From: Atherinomorus stipes | Taxonomy: Eukaryota > Chordata > Actinopteri > Atheriniformes > Atherinidae | Length of the DNA: 64,000 nt | Direction: 5' to 3' | Assembly: GCA_023101725.1 (NCBI GenBank) | Contig: JALJCO010012663.1 | Span: 186,001 to 250,000, forward strand | In this document: positions 48,937 through 63,257 of the stretch, piece by piece | How positions within the stretch are numbered: position 1 is the first letter of the stretch | Layout of the letters: the number at the start of each line of letters is the position of its first letter | The notes under the pieces: generated by a model | Database searches by the model: none | Told to the model about the DNA's origin: nothing | Seen by the model: only the letters and a program-made list of their open reading frames with translations | Position numbers and translations under genes: made by a program

Positions 48937-50559
48937 CAGTGGGTACGGAAAGTATTCAGACCCCTTTAAACTTTTCACTCTTTGTTTCATTGCAGCCATT
49001 TGCTAAAATCAAAAAAGTTAATTTTATTTCTCATGAATGTACACTCAGCACCCCATCTTGACAGAAAAAAAACTGAAATGTAGAAATTTTAGCAAATTTA
49101 TTAAAAAGAAAAAACTGAAATATCACATGGTCATAAGTATTCAGACCCTTTTCAGTGACACTAATATTTAACTCATATGATGTCCATTTCTTCTGATCCT
49201 CCTTGAGATGGTTCTACTCCTTCATTGGAGTCCAGCTGTGTTTAAATAAACTGATTGGACTTGATTTGGAAATGCACACACCTGTCTTTATCAGACCTTA
49301 CAGCTCACAGTGCATGTCAGAGCAAATGAGAATCATGAGGTCGAAGGAACTGTCCAAGGAGCTCAGAGACAGAATTGTGGCGAGACACAGATCTGGACAA
49401 GGTTACAAAAGAATTTCTGCATCACTAAAGGTTCCTAAGAGCACGGTGGCCTCCATAGTCCTTAAATGGAAGAAGTTTGGGACGACCAGAACTCTTCCTA
49501 GACCCGGCCATCCAGCCAAACTGAGCAATCATGGGAGAAGAGCCTTGGTGAGAGAGATAAGAAGAAGCCAAAGATCACTGCGGCTGAGCTCCAGAGATGC
49601 AGTAGGGAGATGGAGAAAGTTCCACAAAGTCAACTATCAATGCAGCCTCCACCAGTCGGGGCTTTATGGCAGAGTTGTCTGATGGAAGCCTCTCCTCAGT
49701 GCAGACATATGAAAGCCTGCATACAGTTTGCCAAAAAACACATGACGGACTCCCAGACTGTGAGAAATAAGATTCTCTGGTCTGATGAGACCAAGATTGA
49801 ACTTTTTGCAGTTAATTCTAAGCGGTATGTGTGGAGAAAACCAGGCACTGCTCATCACCTGCCCAATACCATCCCAACAGTGAAACGTGGTGGCAGCATC
49901 ATGCCATGGGGGTGTTTTTCAGCTGCAGGGACAGGACGACTGGTTGCAATTGAAGGAAAGATGAATGTGGCCAAGTACAGAGATATTCTGGAAGAAAACC
50001 TCTTCCAGAGTGTTCAGGACCTCAGACTGGGCTGAAGGTTCACCTTCCAGTAAGACAATGACCCTCACACACAGCTAAAATAACAAAGGAGCGGCTTCAG
50101 AACATCTCTGGGACCATTCTTGACTGACACAGCCAGAGCCCTGACTTAAACCCAACTGAGCATCTCTGGAGAGACTGAAAATGGCTGTCCACCACCGTTC
50201 ACCATCCAACCTGACAGAACTGGAGAGGATCTGCAAGTAAGATTGGCAGAAGATCCCAAATCCAGGGGTGAAAAACTTGTTGCATCATTCCCAAGAAGAT
50301 TCATGGCTGTAGTCGCTCAAAAGGTGCTTCTACTCAGTACTGAGTGAAGGGTCTGAATACTTATGACCATGTGATATTTCAGTTTTTCTCTTTTAATAAC
50401 TTTGCAAAAATTTGTACATTTGTTTTTTTTTCTGTCAAGATGGAGTGCTGAGTGAACATTAATGAGAAATAAAATGAACTTTTTTTATTTTAGCAAATGG
50501 CTGCAATGAAACAAAGTGTGAAAAGTTTAAAGGGGTCTGAATACTTTCTGTACCCACTG
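48937..50559 (+). mobile_element. Tc1-like transposon, 1.62 kb, intact ends
   Basis: Termini 'CAGTGGGTACGGAAAGTATT' and its complement at the right end are flanked by TA (48935-48936 and 50560-50561). The inverted repeats extend inward, with shared blocks such as 'ttcattgcagccatttgcta' and its complement, and a second inverted pair, 'tatcacatggtcataagtat', near each end. Length is usual for Tc1. The transposase inside is broken. Confidence 0.95.
49314..50346 (+). pseudogene. Broken Tc1 transposase
   Basis: Cut-and-paste transposase of the Tc1 (DD34E) family. N-terminal paired-like helix-turn-helix regions are clear ('ELSKELRDRIVARHRSGQGY', '[12 protein letters not shown]'). A frame change near 49570-49690 leads to the catalytic region with '[12 protein letters not shown]' (first Asp, kept) and '[16 protein letters not shown]'. 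The frame stops near 50033. The second Asp region is present only as a broken 'DNDPHT', and the final Glu region ('SPDLNPIEHLW' in intact relatives) is destroyed by stops. No active enzyme. Confidence 0.92.
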
Positions 50560-51247: not shown

Positions 51248-51697
51248 TTAAAGGGACTTGAGGCAAGATTAAGAAACGAAACTCGTGACTGCCGCTTCAG
51301 GTAACTGCAGCCACGAGCCAGGCTGTCACGGGAGCGTGCACAAACTGAAGCTGTAACGTTGTTCACTATGCTTTTTCTTTGTAGTTAGTTGATCTGGATC
51401 GTTTGCTGACGGCAGAAGAATCCATAACTATCGCTTACGGTGTTTGAATTTACCACGACCGTCTTCTTCCTGTATCAAAACTGCAGATGTAACGTCATTT
51501 GACGTCACGTCCGCAGGGCAGGACGGGAAATTCGGACACCGAGTTGCATTTTGCAGCACACAGCCTGTTCAAGGCTACGGAGAGAGATGTGGGTGGAAAC
51601 GTTCTTTTTGGTATTTAGCGCTTCATCACTCATTAGTGTTAAAAAAAATGGACATGCATGTTTGCTTTTTTTAAATTCCTGCCTCTAGTCCCTTTAA
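51248..51697. mobile_element. Repeat R copy b, complete, 450 bp
   Basis: TTAA-flanked, with inverted ends 'TTAAAGGGACTTGAGGCAAG' and 'CCTGCCTCTAGTCCCTTTAA'. Opposite orientation to copies a and c. Shares internal blocks with them, for example 'gtttgctgacggcagaagaa'. The frames inside are by-products of the repeat. Lies just beyond the 3' end of insulin-like unit A. Confidence 0.85.
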
Positions 51698-51699
51698 TT

Positions 51700-52231
51700 A
51701 CATGCTGCATGGCAGGGACTCCTAAAAATGACTTGGTTCATTTAACTTAATTGCAAATATCATGTAAATGCTTGAAAGTAAAAATGAACTATGATTAGTG
51801 ATCTGAACACCAGAGTATTCACTAGTTTTCACAGTTTTAAACTGCTCAGTTCAAACAGTATCCAGGGCAGGAAGAAATAAAATATGGAACTACAAAGAGA
51901 TGCAAAGGAGAAAAACAGCACATAGTAAGAAATCAAGGCTCTTAAACTGGCAACATAGCCTTTATTTATCATCAACATGAGCTAACCTTCAGTGATTTTG
52001 TGGCTAAAAATTAATAAATAATTATCATTAAAAAATGGGATTTACCAATCAAGTAACTGCTCTCATTTACTTATATCTCAAAGAACTTTCACAAAATAGA
52101 ACTCATCTTCAGCTAGAACTCCAAACTATAGATCTCTTGGTGCACTCAGAGGAGCCAAAGTTCGCCAAAGCTGAGCTAAGCTACGCAAAGCCACTAGCAA
52201 CGTGGCTACATGCTGGTGTTTGAGTTGGATT
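51700..52231 (-). other. 3' region of insulin-like unit A
   Basis: Downstream of the unit A stop codon. The segment around 51915-51990 matches the 3' region of unit C at 59775-59850, sharing 'ggcaacatagc' and the reading-direction polyadenylation signal. This supports a common gene ancestor, including the 3' UTR, rather than chance similarity of the coding part. Confidence 0.6.
51961..51966 (-). promoter_or_regulatory. Polyadenylation signal AATAAA (unit A)
   Basis: AATAAA on the minus strand, in the 3' block shared with unit C and about 265 bases after the stop codon. Confidence 0.55.
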
Positions 52232-52767
52232 TCACATGCAGAAATTCCTCAAGATGTTGCAAGGCCACTCACAGCAGATCTCATTTGAACCAAAATACAT
52301 CTTGCTAGGGCCATCCTTCCCTCTATCCAATCTTGGTCTGTAGTGGGCTGTTGATGGGAAATGAAAGAGGAGACAGTTAAGGGTGAAAGTCATCCTGCTA
52401 ATTTAATAAGAGCACACACGACTGAAAGGAAGAAACAGAAACCTGAATTATGAGTTGTGAATGTTTAAACATGAGTACATGAATTCAAGCTTATTGCAAG
52501 TTTGAGTGTTTTTCAAATAGTGGTCTCACGTGGCCCAATTTGGAGTTGGGGCACAGGAAAGAAAGAATGGCCCCTTTCCCCACAGAGAAAGAAAAGAGCC
52601 TCTTCGATATCAGGTCCACAAATGGGTTCAGAAAAAATGTACTGTGAGCTTGGACATGGGCACATGACCAGTAAGACCAGCAGAGTAGCAGCTCGTGCAC
52701 ATACTCGTGCTTTGAGCGTGAGATGCGAGTGACATCTATGTGTTGATTGGCTGAATGGTAGCTGCAC
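52232..52767 (-). pseudogene. Insulin/IGF-like gene, unit A: two open exons, start codon lost
   Basis: Exon with signal-like and B-chain sequence: down to 52530, entering from an undefined 5' point. It reads 'ATLLVLLVMCPCPSSQ', then 'ICGPDIEEALFFLCGERG', keeping the Cys-x11-Cys and 'CGERG' of insulin/IGF B chains. Donor 'c/gtgaga' is phase 1. Intron 52348-52529 (182 bp). Exon 52347-52232 enters in phase after 'ttcccatcaacag' and stays open to 'NEICCEWPCNILRNFCM' and a stop. The A chain is CC-x3-C-x6-C; the family norm is x8, so two codons are missing relative to unit C. The codon matching unit C's ATG is AAA, the nearby splice acceptor is also altered, and no in-frame ATG precedes the hydrophobic stretch. 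So it is either a pseudogene or depends on an unseen 5' exon. Confidence 0.6.
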
Positions 52768-56851: not shown

Positions 56852-57271
56852 TTAAAGGGACTAAAGACAGGAATTACGAAAGAATAAACAAGCATGTCCA
56901 GTTTTTTTAACACTTATGGATGATGAAGCATTAAAAACCAAAAAGAACGTTTCCACCCACGTCTCTCTGCATTGACTTGAACAGGCTGTGTGCTGCGTAA
57001 TGCACTACATTTGGTGGCCGAATTTCCCGCGCTGCCCTGCGGATGTGATGTCAAATGTCGCTGTATCCGCATCTCCGACAGTTTTGATACAGGAAGCAGA
57101 AAATTCAAACACTGTACAGTAAGTGATAGTTATAGATTCTTCTGCTGTCAGCAAACGATCCAGATCAACTGAAAGACACTAAAATGTGCAACTACAAAGA
57201 AAAAGCTTAGTAAACAACATTATAGCTTCAGTTTGTGCACACTCCCGTGACGGCTTGGCTCGTGGCTGCAG
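56852..57271. mobile_element. Repeat R copy c, truncated
   Basis: Begins 'TTAAAGGGACTAAAGACAGG' and follows copy a to 'cgtggctgcag' at 57271. There it stops and insulin-like unit B upstream sequence begins. About 60 bp of the right end of R is missing. Confidence 0.85.
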
Positions 57272-57282
57272 ATAAATATAAA

Positions 57283-57673
57283 GAGCACAAGGAAACAAAT
57301 GATTAATTAAACATAAATAATGTAGAAAGATACGAGATGAGGAAGAGGAAGCAACAGGTGGAGCACTAGAGGTCAAAGATGGAAGGAGATGAAAACAAAA
57401 AAACAATTAATGAAATGAAATGAAAAATAATTTATTTATCCCAGTAGGGAAATTCAACATTGTAAAAAAGCTCACTTTTTTGTGTTTTTTGTTTTTGACA
57501 ATATAATATTATGAAATAATAACATAATAATAAATCAGTCAGAGTGATGGCTGCTGGCAGGAATTAAAGATTTTTACATGAGTTAAAGAGTGCGAATAGA
57601 AGAAAATTGAACAAAAGCACAACTTTTTATAAAAGGAGGAGAAAAAAAGAAGTAGAAAGTGAAGGAGAGCAGC
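57283..57673 (-). other. Insulin-like unit B: intron 1 remnant
   Basis: 57283-57420 and 57583-57673 match intron 1 of unit C (60898-61144), for example 'gaggtcaaagatggaaggag'. An A+T-rich block at about 57421-57582 is an extra insertion. The coding exons expected below 57283 are absent; sequence switches directly to truncated repeat R. Confidence 0.7.
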
Positions 57674-57677
57674 TCAC

Positions 57678-57810
57678 CTACAGCGTTGGAAGAGTGGGAG
57701 ATGGATGAAGTATAAAGGAGCAGATGGTATGATCCTGAGCTGAAGTTGCTCTGCATTAATACTCTCAACATATGGAGACACACCTGCTGCATTTGTGTAC
57801 AGATGAGTTT
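57678..57810 (-). other. Insulin-like unit B: orphan 5'UTR exon
   Basis: Close match to the 5'UTR exon of unit C, including 'ttcatccatctcccactctt' and the splice donor 'tag/gtgagc' at 57677. The upstream block with 'ggcaacttttatgcaaa' is also kept. With no coding exons left, this is a gene remnant. The 5' limit is approximate. Confidence 0.65.
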
Positions 57811-57929
57811 GCATAAAAGTTGCCAGTCAGCACATGATGCAAGACTGGTTTAACAAACACACATTACAGCACATGATAAAACAAACTGCGCTGCTGACCT
57901 TGAGAATCAAACAAGCGTTCATATTCAGT

Positions 57930-58215
57930 AGACTGGAACATTGTAATGTTCTTTTAATCAGACATTAACCAGCTGCAGCTCACCCAGAACGCTGCTGGAG
58001 TTATACCAGGGACTTATAGATCCGAACACATCACACCATTTTCACAATCTTTACACTGGCTCCCAGGACTCAGGTCAGCTGGTCCAGACCAGAGTCCAGA
58101 CTAAACATGGAGAAGCAGCAATTTGCTGTGATGCTGCAAGCAAGTGGAACAAATTGTCAGTTGAGATCAAATGTAGAAACCTGTGCATGTGTACTGATCT
58201 CCTGATTTGATTTTG
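57930..58215 (+). mobile_element. LINE RT C-terminal fragment, duplicated with unit B
   Basis: 'cagctgcagctcacccagaa' and 'cacactggctcccagg'-like sequence followed by 'gaccagagtccagactaaac' belong to the C-terminal region of a fish LINE. A shorter piece of the same fragment lies at 61381-61510 next to unit C, so it was present before the duplication. Confidence 0.6.
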
Positions 58216-59459: not shown

Positions 59460-59774
59460 AATGATAGGCCTGGATTTGTGCAGTCACCCGTGTTAAAACA
59501 GGACACCCTCACCACAACAGCCTCCTGTGTAGATTCCGAGGACCACAAAGACACGGACTATATTCTTTCTATGGAAATAAGGGCAGAAAAAAAGCAAAGG
59601 GAGCCTTTGGAAAATTAATGCTTACATCTTTGCAAAGTCTTGTTGCCAATTTTTTACTACGTGCCACAAAATCATAATGAAAGCTTGTTTGGTACTTGAA
59701 CGTACCAAAAGTTTTTGAAATTTTTCATATTAGAGACTCATGTTTGTTTTGAAAGAAATAATGTAAGAAGTGAA
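59460..59774. other. Unassigned interval below unit C
   Basis: No feature recognised. Confidence 0.4.
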
Positions 59775-59821
59775 ACAGCACACAATAAGCAACCACTGCT
59801 CTTTCATTGGCAACATAGCTG

Positions 59822-59827
59822 TTTATT
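59822..59827 (-). promoter_or_regulatory. Polyadenylation signal AATAAA (unit C)
   Basis: AATAAA on the minus strand within a block shared with unit A's 3' end ('ggcaacatagc'). It lies about 585 bases after the stop, of which about 318 come from an inserted MITE. Confidence 0.55.
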
Positions 59828-59870
59828 TATAATCAAGAGGAGCAACATGCCTAAAATTGGCAACTATGAA

Positions 59871-60188
59871 CAGGGCTCTCAAGTCTCACGCAGTGGCGTG
59901 AGACTCACACATTTGAATGACTTCACACGCTCACATGCCATTTCTCACACTGTTAAATTTGCTGCGTTATATGAACGAGCCAACCTGATCTCATAAAAAT
60001 ACGTGACATGAACACGAACAGTCATTACGTGCCACTGACACGTAAAGTTGCGCAATGTTAAGTCAATGGTGAATATACCAAGGCTGTTTGAAATAATTCT
60101 GTAGTGTAATCCCCCCCACCCCTTCCCCGCCCCGTCCCGCTTCAGTCTCAATCTCACTCCAAGCAATTTTCAAAACTTGAGAGCCCTG
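59871..60188. mobile_element. 318-bp hAT-like MITE in the 3'UTR of unit C
   Basis: Inverted ends 'CAGGGCTCTCAAGT' and 'ACTTGAGAGCCCTG'. CAGG-type ends are typical of hAT elements, though no clear 8-bp duplication is visible. It splits the 3' block shared between units A and C, so it arrived after the duplication. Confidence 0.75.
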
Positions 60189-60410
60189 TATTAAAAAAGA
60201 AACAAAGAATAAGAATACCTATCAAGCAAGCACACTCCATTTGTAGCTGAAAGCTTCAGTCCCACAAAATTCAAATTATCTTCAGTGTGAGTTGAGAAAT
60301 CTTCAGGTCTGCTGATGCACTGAGGGGAGCAGCTGGACTCTGAGTTGGCCAGAAGCTAAGAAGTTAGCCAAGCAGCGACAGGACTGAATGCTGGTGTCTG
60401 TGCTGGTTTT

Positions 60411-60823
60411 TCAAGTGCAGAGGGATTCCAAGTCAGCCATAGTGCAAGACCTTTCACAGCAGCGTTTAATAACATTTGTCCGCGCCTTCCGCCTCTCCAT
60501 TGCTACATTTGGATGGTATTTGATAGAGAGAAAGTTAAAAGTCATTCACATGATTTTTTTTTTTTTAAAGGCACATAAGTAGAAAAAATATACTGCTGAC
60601 TACAAGTTTAAGTTCAAGTTTTTGTGATACCTTGTCTTCTGTATGTTTCAGTGTCAGGCTGCGCAGGTTTGGGTGGAAAAAAGCGTCTTTCACCACAGAC
60701 AAATGATATAGCATCAACCATTTCTGCTCCGCACAGGCGTCCTTCTGCAGTGGCTTGTGAGTAGGGGCATGATATGACCAGTAAGACCAGCAGAGCAACA
60801 GTATGTATCCACAGTCTCGCCAT
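60411..60823 (-). CDS. Insulin/IGF-like prohormone, unit C (two coding exons)
   Basis: Predicted secreted peptide hormone of 94 residues; CDS joins 60823-60631 and 60502-60411. The signal peptide is about residues 1-24 (hydrophobic 'VALLVLLVI'). B chain: 'RLCGAEMVDAISFVCGERR' (Cys31, Cys43). Short connecting region 52-72 with 'YRRQ' and 'ERRKAR', possible furin-type sites. A chain: 'VIKRCCERSCTMADLESLC' (Cys79, 80, 84, 93), spaced CC-x3-C-x8-C, followed by Thr and stop. The intron (60503-60630, 128 bp) has 'g/gtatca' and 'gtag/ca' sites and is phase 1, as in vertebrate insulin genes. The ATG sits 13 bases after an acceptor. Nearest to insulin/IGF, not relaxin: no RxxxRxxI and no CCxxGC. Unlike IGFs it has no D/E extension. 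'KR' directly before CC is unusual. Paralogue identity (an igf3-like or new lineage) is unresolved. Expression is unproven. Confidence 0.8.
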
Positions 60824-60835
60824 AGAGTAGATGAG

Positions 60836-61144
60836 CTGGATGCAATGTGGATTTTTTGGATGAGAAAGCGTAAATCAAAGAAAGTTGAAAAATAAATACA
60901 AACACATAAGAAGGAAACGATTGATGAACCATGAATGACGTAGAAAGCTACGAAATGAGGAAGAGAAAGCAACAGGTGGAGCGTTAGAGGTCAGAGATGG
61001 AAGGAGATGAAAACATAAAACCATTTAAAGATACATGAGATAGTGTGTGGATAAAAAAAAAAAAAAAACACTGAACAAAAGCACAACTTTTCAGTAAAAG
61101 GAGAAGAAAAAAGAAAGAAGAGAAAGTTGAGGAGAGCAGCTCAC
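60836..61144 (-). other. Unit C intron 1
   Basis: 309 bp between the 5'UTR donor 'cag/gtgagc' and the acceptor 'ttgcatccag/ctc' just before the start codon. Both sites are canonical. A short poly-T/poly-A tract lies near 61053-61068. Confidence 0.7.
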
Positions 61145-61275
61145 CTGCAGAGTTAGAAGAGTGGGAGATGGATGAAGTCTAGATGTAAAGGAGCAGATGA
61201 TCCTGAGCTGAAGTTGCTCTCTGCATTAATACTCTCAACACACCAGGACACGCCTGCTGCATGTGTGTACAGATG
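61145..61275 (-). other. Unit C 5'UTR exon and proximal upstream region
   Basis: Non-coding first exon ending 'ctctgcag' at 61145. It is conserved in unit B, as is the upstream block to about 61330. The transcription start is not determinable by eye. I see no convincing TATA box in the minus direction; 'gcataaaag' at 61281 reads on the opposite strand. Confidence 0.6.
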
Positions 61276-61380: not shown

Positions 61381-61510
61381 CTGTTCAGATCCAAGGACTC
61401 GGGTCAGGTGGCCCAGACCAGAGTCCAGACTGAACATGGAGAAGAAGCATTTTCCTCTTATGCAGCAAACAAGTGGAACAACCTGCCAAGACAGGGAATT
61501 TTTTTTTTTT
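61381..61510 (+). mobile_element. LINE RT fragment, duplicated with unit C
   Basis: 'gaccagagtccagactgaac' to 'aagtggaacaacctgcc' matches the fragment at 58080-58160 upstream of unit B. It is shorter than the unit B copy. Confidence 0.6.
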
Positions 61511-62532: not shown

Positions 62533-62952
62533 TGTGGGCTTTCATATGTCTTGCACTGTGGAGAGGCTTCGATTGGGCCACTCTACCATAAAGCCCGACT
62601 GGTGGAGGCTGCAGTGACAGTTGACTTTGTGGAACTTTCTTCAATCTCCCTGCATCTCTGGAGCTCAGCCACAGTGATCTTTGGGTTCTTCTTTACCTCT
62701 CTCACCAAGGCTCTTCTCCCACAATTGCTCACTTTGTCTGGACGGCCAGGTCTAGGAAGAGTTCTGGTCGCCCAAAACTTGTTCCATTTAAGGATTACGG
62801 AGGTCACGGTGCTCTCAGGAACCTTTAGTACTGCCCAAATTCTTTTGTAACCTTGTCCAGATCTGTGCCTCGCCACAATTCTGTCTCTGAGCTCCTTGGG
62901 CAGTTCCTTCGACCTCGTGATTCTCATTTGCTCTGACATGCACTGTGAGCTA
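62533..62952 (-). pseudogene. Tc1 transposase fragment (N-terminal part)
   Basis: Minus strand; matches the N-terminal half of the Tc1 at 49310-49725. It includes 'CMSEQMRITRSKELPKELRD', 'GQGYKRIWAVLKVPESTV' and 'TLPRPGRPDKVS', up to the region before the first catalytic Asp. No inverted ends remain at either side. The frame upstream of residue 'CMSEQ' is unrelated G-rich sequence. Confidence 0.9.
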
Positions 62953-63005
62953 CAAGCAGTGCTGCCCCTGACCAAATTGGCCCTAAGCGAAATGTTATTT
63001 GGAGC

Positions 63006-63023
63006 CCCCCCCCCCCCCCCCCC
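63006..63023. repeat. Poly-C run
   Basis: About 18 C's after 'ttggagcccc'. The preceding 'gtgctgcccctgaccaaatt' looks repeat-derived. Confidence 0.9.
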
Positions 63024-63257
63024 GTTGCCGCCCCATGCTCTCACACCTCTCCCCATCCCCATCACTTAGAGCAGCACCTGTATGTGTAAAGATGCTGCTT
63101 GATAGCCCTGGTGATGTGCTGACAAATGTCTGCATTGACCCTGTTATCGTCAGAAATCCAGACAAGCAGATTAATATATGTTCTGGTCTTTCTCGTAAAC
63201 TACTACATCATGACATTAATGTAAATGCTAGCCTCAAAAAGATTAAAAGCAAATGAA

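Follow-up and report, generated by a model that had tools for sequence, protein, structure and literature searches.

The gene that lies at positions 60411..61275 on the minus strand of the window (the whole 64,000-nucleotide stretch analysed here, bases 186001-250000 of the 592 kb contig C6641, from an assembly of 1.18 Gb) is, on the evidence of its DNA, very probably an insulin paralogue derived from insa. It is called gene A, or copy A, below. In the preferred reading, to which a probability of about 0.7 is given, it is a diverged, insab-like duplicate of insa and one of at least four insulin copies or fragments on a transposon-rich contig. Most likely it would yield a secreted, badly processed proinsulin-like protein and not a normal insulin-receptor agonist.

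Structure of gene A

Coordinates and strand of the original prediction, with its 94-residue product and 128-bp intron, were reproduced from the DNA, and the B-chain Cys-x11-Cys, the A-chain CC-x3-C-x8-C, the exon-1 donor at 61145 (CTGCAG/GTGAGC), the phase-1 donor after 60631 and the ATG at 60823 were all present (table 1). With the splicing predicted, gene A has the insulin plan (signal peptide and B chain in one exon, a phase-1 intron in the C region) and lacks the IGF features of an intron within the B domain and a D/E extension. The phase-1 intron falls in the 22nd codon past CysB19; the corresponding distance is ~20-22 residues in the insaa and insb genes of the same genome (hereafter the 'own' genes) and ~8 in own igf1. 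Gene A resembles own insaa in exon plan, type of signal peptide and the stop past the last Cys, and its exon-1 donor (CTCTGCAG/GT in both genes) and TATA position align with those of own insaa. The acceptor 5' of exon 2 reads CATCCAG/CTCATCTACTCTATG. The predicted exon-2 donor reads AAG/GTATCA, a weaker site than the GTGAGAC that insaa, insb and copies B and D have; at window positions 60620-60640 the donor seems to have shifted from GTGAGAC to GTATCA, by which RR would be added to the connecting region. Near the AATAAA, the end of the 3'UTR is 78% identical with copy B and 85% with copy D.

The product, MARLWIHTVALLVLLVISCPYSQATAEGRLCGAEMVDAISFVCGERRFFPPKPAQPDTETYRRQAMERRKARTNVIKRCCERSCTMADLESLCT, carries all six insulin cysteines at insulin spacing and matched Pfam Insulin with 43 bits (E 9.2e-11; cut-off 23); the two coding exons taken singly gave 8e-5 and 5e-4, the second slightly below the cut-off. 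When PDB was searched with phmmer, IGF-I was the best match (3.3e-11), with IGF-II at 8.6e-10 and preproinsulin at 1.3e-9 (best 60 of 121 matches). A homologue search of 5.8 billion proteins, a collection that may be poor in animal proteins, yielded 3 candidates, none of which scored. The connecting stretch, described earlier as very short and basic, measures 35 residues from CysB19 to CysA6 (39 in copy D, ~58 in own insaa) and is basic only near the A chain. The lack of an IGF-style D/E domain, listed earlier as an oddity, is none: own insaa and insb likewise stop 1 residue past the last Cys, so this ending is insulin's own habit and not a lost IGF tail. The 'IKR' that abuts the Cys pair is present, and its nature is a substitution at A3-A5, not a deletion.

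The trio TGCTGAC-CATCTG-TTAATG upstream was considered as a set of beta-cell promoter elements and rejected, TTAATG being aligned with the insaa TATA box. The trio had 2 matches in the window and 0 in 100 shuffles; its recurrence reflects the duplication that links copies A, B-5' and E. With the promoter-to-intron-1 DNA of gene A as query, at least 42 matches appeared, with 40 of 196 candidates scored. Of these matches 5 are on C6641; the remaining 37, on other contigs, all fall in bases 1-155 of the query, where the dispersed repeat at ~61387-61488 is located. This repeat also stands upstream in copies B and E and is for that reason probably older than the B/E duplications.

Table 1. Features of gene A and copy B (window positions) and the other insulin-family genes of the genome (contigs).
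Feature	Location	Strand	Remarks
Gene A 3'UTR	59765..60410	-	AATAAA at 59827-59822
Gene A exon 3, coding	60411..60502	-	C-region end and A chain; stop 1 residue past last Cys
Gene A intron 2	60503..60630	-	phase 1, 128 bp; weak donor AAG/GTATCA, acceptor TGTAG
Gene A exon 2	60631..60835	-	12-nt leader, ATG 60823, signal peptide, B chain, C-region start
Gene A intron 1	60836..61144	-	copies B-5' and E keep its donor and flanks
Gene A exon 1 (5'UTR)	61145..61200	-	non-coding; estimated 5' end
Gene A TATTAATG	61224..61231	-	aligned to own insaa TATA box
Dispersed repeat 5' of gene A promoter	61387..61488	-	matches on many contigs
Copy B 3'UTR end	51905..51982	-	with poly(A) signal; 78% identical
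Copy B exon 3	52232..52347	-	A chain 2 residues shorter (CC-x3-C-x6-C); phase fits copy B exon 2
Copy B intron 2	52349..52529	-	
Copy B exon 2 remainder	52530..52710	-	signal and B chain, open frame; donor CCAC/GTGAGA
Copy B 5' half	57272..58152	-	promoter, exon 1 (donor after 57678), intron 1; 3 pieces 83-87% identical to gene A
insaa	C2705:380220-382830		NIPA-family exons ~15 kb away (nipal)
insb	C1029		HMMR exons ~2.4 kb away (hmmr)
igf1	C6627		IGF intron position, D/E tail
igf2	C2776		D/E tail
igf3-like A-chain exon	C5079		E-domain-like tail

Insulin copies on contig C6641 and their origin

The original prediction did not mention further copies of the gene. Copy B lies in the same window and copies D and E further along the contig, and the cluster comprises at least four insulin copies or fragments (A, B, D and E) in the 264 of 592 kb examined. 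Copy B was found with insulin probes at 52.7-52.2 kb on the strand of gene A, to which it is homologous across exon 2, intron 2, exon 3 and the 3'UTR including the poly(A) signal. Its phase-1 splice sites match, its frame is open and it has six cysteines; Pfam Insulin gives it 0.0014, below the cut-off, and in PDB insulin ranks first (4.6e-8). Copy B looks like a single duplicate split by ~4.5 kb of inserted DNA, since its 5' half ends about where its 3' half begins. Arms of an inverted repeat (51302-51697 and 56852-57274) surround its coding exons and are possibly transposon ends.

Copy D (C6641:314841-315324, plus strand, 68 kb from gene A) has intact frames, a plain insulin B chain and the A-chain-side sequence ...RIDVRCCKSPCSILDLQEYCL, without the usual cleavage sites. 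Copy E (C6641:305436-306247) is truncated and consists of promoter, exon 1 and intron 1, followed by ~12-16 codons. Beside copy D no A-like promoter was seen; as a speculation, copy D could use that of copy E. A weak match of copy D on C3066 (E 0.07) was discarded, no insulin cysteine pattern being found there in three frames.

In DNA comparisons gene A and copy D were 74% identical in exon 2 (5e-20), 69% in intron 1 (1e-9) and 85% in the 3'UTR (1e-15). Both match the insaa loci, and at E 0.01 no match to the insb loci was obtained; outside the cluster, the best matches of the copy D protein were insaa (50.9 bits), insb (38.4) and igf1 (26.1). A genome-wide Pfam Insulin search returned 11 exon matches, among them copies A and D on C6641 and not copy B; the other genes are given in table 1. 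The neighbours of own insaa (NIPA family) and own insb (HMMR) are those that Irwin gives for these genes (PMC6591164). As for the suggestion of a fast-evolving or unrecognised insulin-family lineage, the insulin exon plan and the atypical, fast-evolving sequence stood; a new lineage of the superfamily is not supported, because gene A is homologous at the DNA level to copy D, and the DNA of each matches insaa but not insb.

When the entire window was scanned with Pfam in six frames (30 frame pieces), the only families listed were a Sleeping Beauty HTH, Insulin and two of marginal score (E 0.03-0.04); Rfam and tRNA scans found nothing in it. On these Pfam scans no neighbour gene was detected in the window, split exons being weakly detectable in this way (the insulin exon itself scored 0.02). 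Two Tc1/Sleeping-Beauty-type transposase stretches, ~90% alike and inverted relative to each other, flank the insulin pair at 49197-50032 (plus) and 62586-63065 (minus). In a crude coding-potential ranking over 264 kb of C6641 (75 of 108 frames) several top frames resemble reverse transcriptase, gag/pol or transposase, and no host gene was recognised by eye in these 75 frames; the Pfam scan covered the window.

Evolutionary constraint

Within this one genome, dN/dS was 0.69 (0.40-1.16) for A-D, 1.44 (0.87-2.53) for B-D and 0.85 (0.49-1.47) for A-B. Neutral evolution was simulated from copy D as a stand-in for the ancestor, with indels ignored; at a silent distance of 0.345, an open frame with six cysteines was left in a fraction of 0.0013 of 6000 runs, and with the ATG kept as well in 0.0007 (0.006 at a distance of 0.2). 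Copies A and B diverge by 34% in the exon-2 core and by 22% in exon 3 (CC to stop), and by 21-31% in intron 2 and 3'UTR. The gaps between them measure 3 and 6 nt in the exon-2 core and 1, 3 and 2 nt, in sum six, in exon 3. By these sequence comparisons weak constraint on gene A appears to be partly shown; by the simulation it would at least not be plainly absent.

In the main rival of this reading, gene A is an unexpressed copy in decay, on its way to becoming an insulin pseudogene and with a frame still open by chance. The coding divergence between A and B, which is not below that of intron 2 and 3'UTR, speaks for it, as do dN/dS intervals that span 1, the weak and displaced exon-2 donor, the transposon-rich surroundings and the damage to the sister copies (copy B has no ATG at the expected place in exon 2, and copy E breaks off). 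Against it, 6 of 6 cysteines, frame and start were retained at neutral odds of ~0.001 (0.006 at distance 0.2), both gaps in the exon-2 core are multiples of three, and promoter, exon-1 donor and poly(A) region were kept. Decay is accordingly held to be unlikely, and on dN/dS, simulation and A-B divergence together gene A is favoured as a retained, weakly constrained proinsulin-like protein.

Altered residues and predicted product

Own insaa has the cutting sites PKSRR and VKR/GIVEQ, Gly B23 and Tyr A19; gene A has none of them. The dibasic B/C site was lost (FFYSPKSRR to FFPPKPAQ), A1-A5 read NVIKR in place of the GIVEQ type, and gene A has Arg B23, Lys A4 and Leu A19 where Gly B23 and Tyr A19 are common to own insaa, insb, igf1 and igf2. 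Basic pairs occur further on: two possible RR sites lie at 62-63 and 68-69, and R-K-A-R precedes the A chain. Human diabetes mutations given in PMC8514764 include Gly B23 to Val or Asp, Glu A4 to Lys and Tyr A19 to Asp or Cys; in its abstract, proinsulin that misfolds is said to impair normal insulin in trans.

Gene A is predicted to be transcribed, and its protein would be secreted by way of the insulin-type signal peptide, would fold with the insulin disulphides and would either stay single-chain or be cut abnormally at the RR pairs or at R-K-A-R. As other residues stand at Gly B23, Glu A4 and Tyr A19, poor agonism at the insulin receptor is to be expected, and a conventional two-chain agonist is unlikely. 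Since residues and cutting sites of normal insulin were lost, gene A probably encodes an unusual insulin-like protein and not a working insulin. Its likeliest action, if it has any, would be that of a proinsulin-like protein that competes in folding, in processing or for occupation of the receptor, not that of a hormone of its own; this function is proposed tentatively, by analogy with Irwin's suggestion for the processing of insab (PMC6591164).

A second rival holds that the insulin duplicate was turned into a single-chain, IGF1-like growth factor. The short, uncleaved connection of 35 residues and the loss of the standard B/C site would suit such a protein, and so would Ala B9, Glu B10 and Phe B17, an IGF1-type B helix, and the first rank of IGF-I in PDB (best 60 of 121 matches). 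In the B segment gene A shares 15 of 25 residues with own igf1, 14 with insb, 12 each with igf2 and copy D and 11 with insaa, so igf1 leads insb by 1 and insaa by 4. The likeness to own igf1 (on C6627) lies in GAE-VD---FVCGER of the B helix; intron position, D/E domain, signal peptide, Gly B23, Tyr A19 and GIVDE set the two apart. Arg and Leu stand where own insaa, insb, igf1 and igf2 have Gly B23 and Tyr A19, Phe B17 occurs in own insb too, there is no D domain, and the resemblance of the B helix was noticed after the fact. This rival is judged distinctly improbable. A wider version, in which an insa duplicate founded a small insulin-like family and one member was selected towards a single-chain IGF1-like or antagonist ligand, is regarded as improbable too, by a little less.

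The viral insulin-like peptides of fish iridoviruses (PDB 7u23) are single-chain and insulin-like, as is proposed here for gene A. Gene A matches PDB 7u23 less well (1.3e-4) than it does vertebrate IGF and insulin precursors, and it has introns and lies in a fish insulin cluster.

Family placement

In mature-chain trees the relaxins split off at 99/98, and in both such trees (relaxin outgroup) copy A stood alone, apart from all insulins and IGFs. The AU test rejected A, B and D as one clade (p 0.009) and fitted copy A equally well with the IGFs and with the insulins (p 0.088 each). In a tree of prepropeptides, with signal peptides included and relaxins left out, A grouped weakly with insaa, D and B (54/88), and igf1 with igf2 at 99/99. 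Because tree rows hold only 50-90 residues with long branches, the DNA homology was given more weight than the trees; a position firmly inside a known family such as igf3, raised earlier as a possible outcome, was not obtained from the short mature chains.

The motif RxxxRxxI/V is typical of B chains of the relaxin family. It is absent from the B chain of gene A (RLCGAEMVDAISF), which has Asp at the second Arg site. That gene A belongs to the IGF or relaxin family and not to insulin is most improbable: the IGF-I match at the top of the phmmer search, an AU test that allows grouping with the IGFs and an A chain, CTMADLESLC, that is somewhat like INSL5 are set against own igf1, igf2 and an igf3-like exon on other contigs with D/E tails and (igf1) the IGF intron position, the separation of the relaxins at 99/98, the missing Arg motif and the DNA homology to insulin copy D.

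Relation to insab and significance

Irwin's account (PMC6591164), in the sections that concern this gene, describes insab as a percomorph duplicate of insa near sh3pxd2b, known from 14 sequences in which all cysteines are conserved. The B/C site is present in 2 of the 14, the C/A site in 9 and a two-chain product in 1; dN/dS is 0.48-0.51, and tandem copies occur in Boleophthalmus (PMC6591164). The relevant part of a 2021 review repeats this account (PMC8051583). By these descriptions the cluster on C6641 is like insab in being insa-derived, in keeping signal peptide and six cysteines, in the loss of the B/C site and perhaps in weak constraint; processing sites are lost with all cysteines kept in both A and D, and tandem copies have their parallel in Boleophthalmus. 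It differs in the transposon-rich contig, in the number of at least four copies or fragments and in the IGF1-like B helix. Linkage to sh3pxd2b, as described for insab, was not seen: among the 30 matches listed for a human SH3PXD2B probe no exon was on C6641, and the best was on C4615. The cluster was not found beside sh3pxd2b and is therefore called insab-like, with no claim of orthology.

A literature search on fish insaa and insab returned PMC6591164 and PMC8051583 alone, with no other work on fish insab by title among the best 15 of 387 looser matches, and one on tandem insulin duplicates returned Irwin (PMC6591164) alone. Measured against the parts of these sources that treat insab, what appears to be new is a cluster of four copies or fragments amid transposon-rich DNA, together with a B helix that is IGF1-like.

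If one member of the cluster was indeed selected towards a single-chain IGF1-like or antagonist ligand, Arg B23, Lys A4 and Leu A19 would be tolerated where changes in the human hormone cause diabetes. Insulin is a strongly constrained hormone, and a naturally retained copy in which B23, A4 and A19 have changed but the frame is open and every cysteine is present would reveal the extent to which this fold can drift. Gene A may also serve as a test of whether unprocessed insulin-like proteins modulate fish insulin, a question that Irwin's discussion of insab leaves open (PMC6591164).
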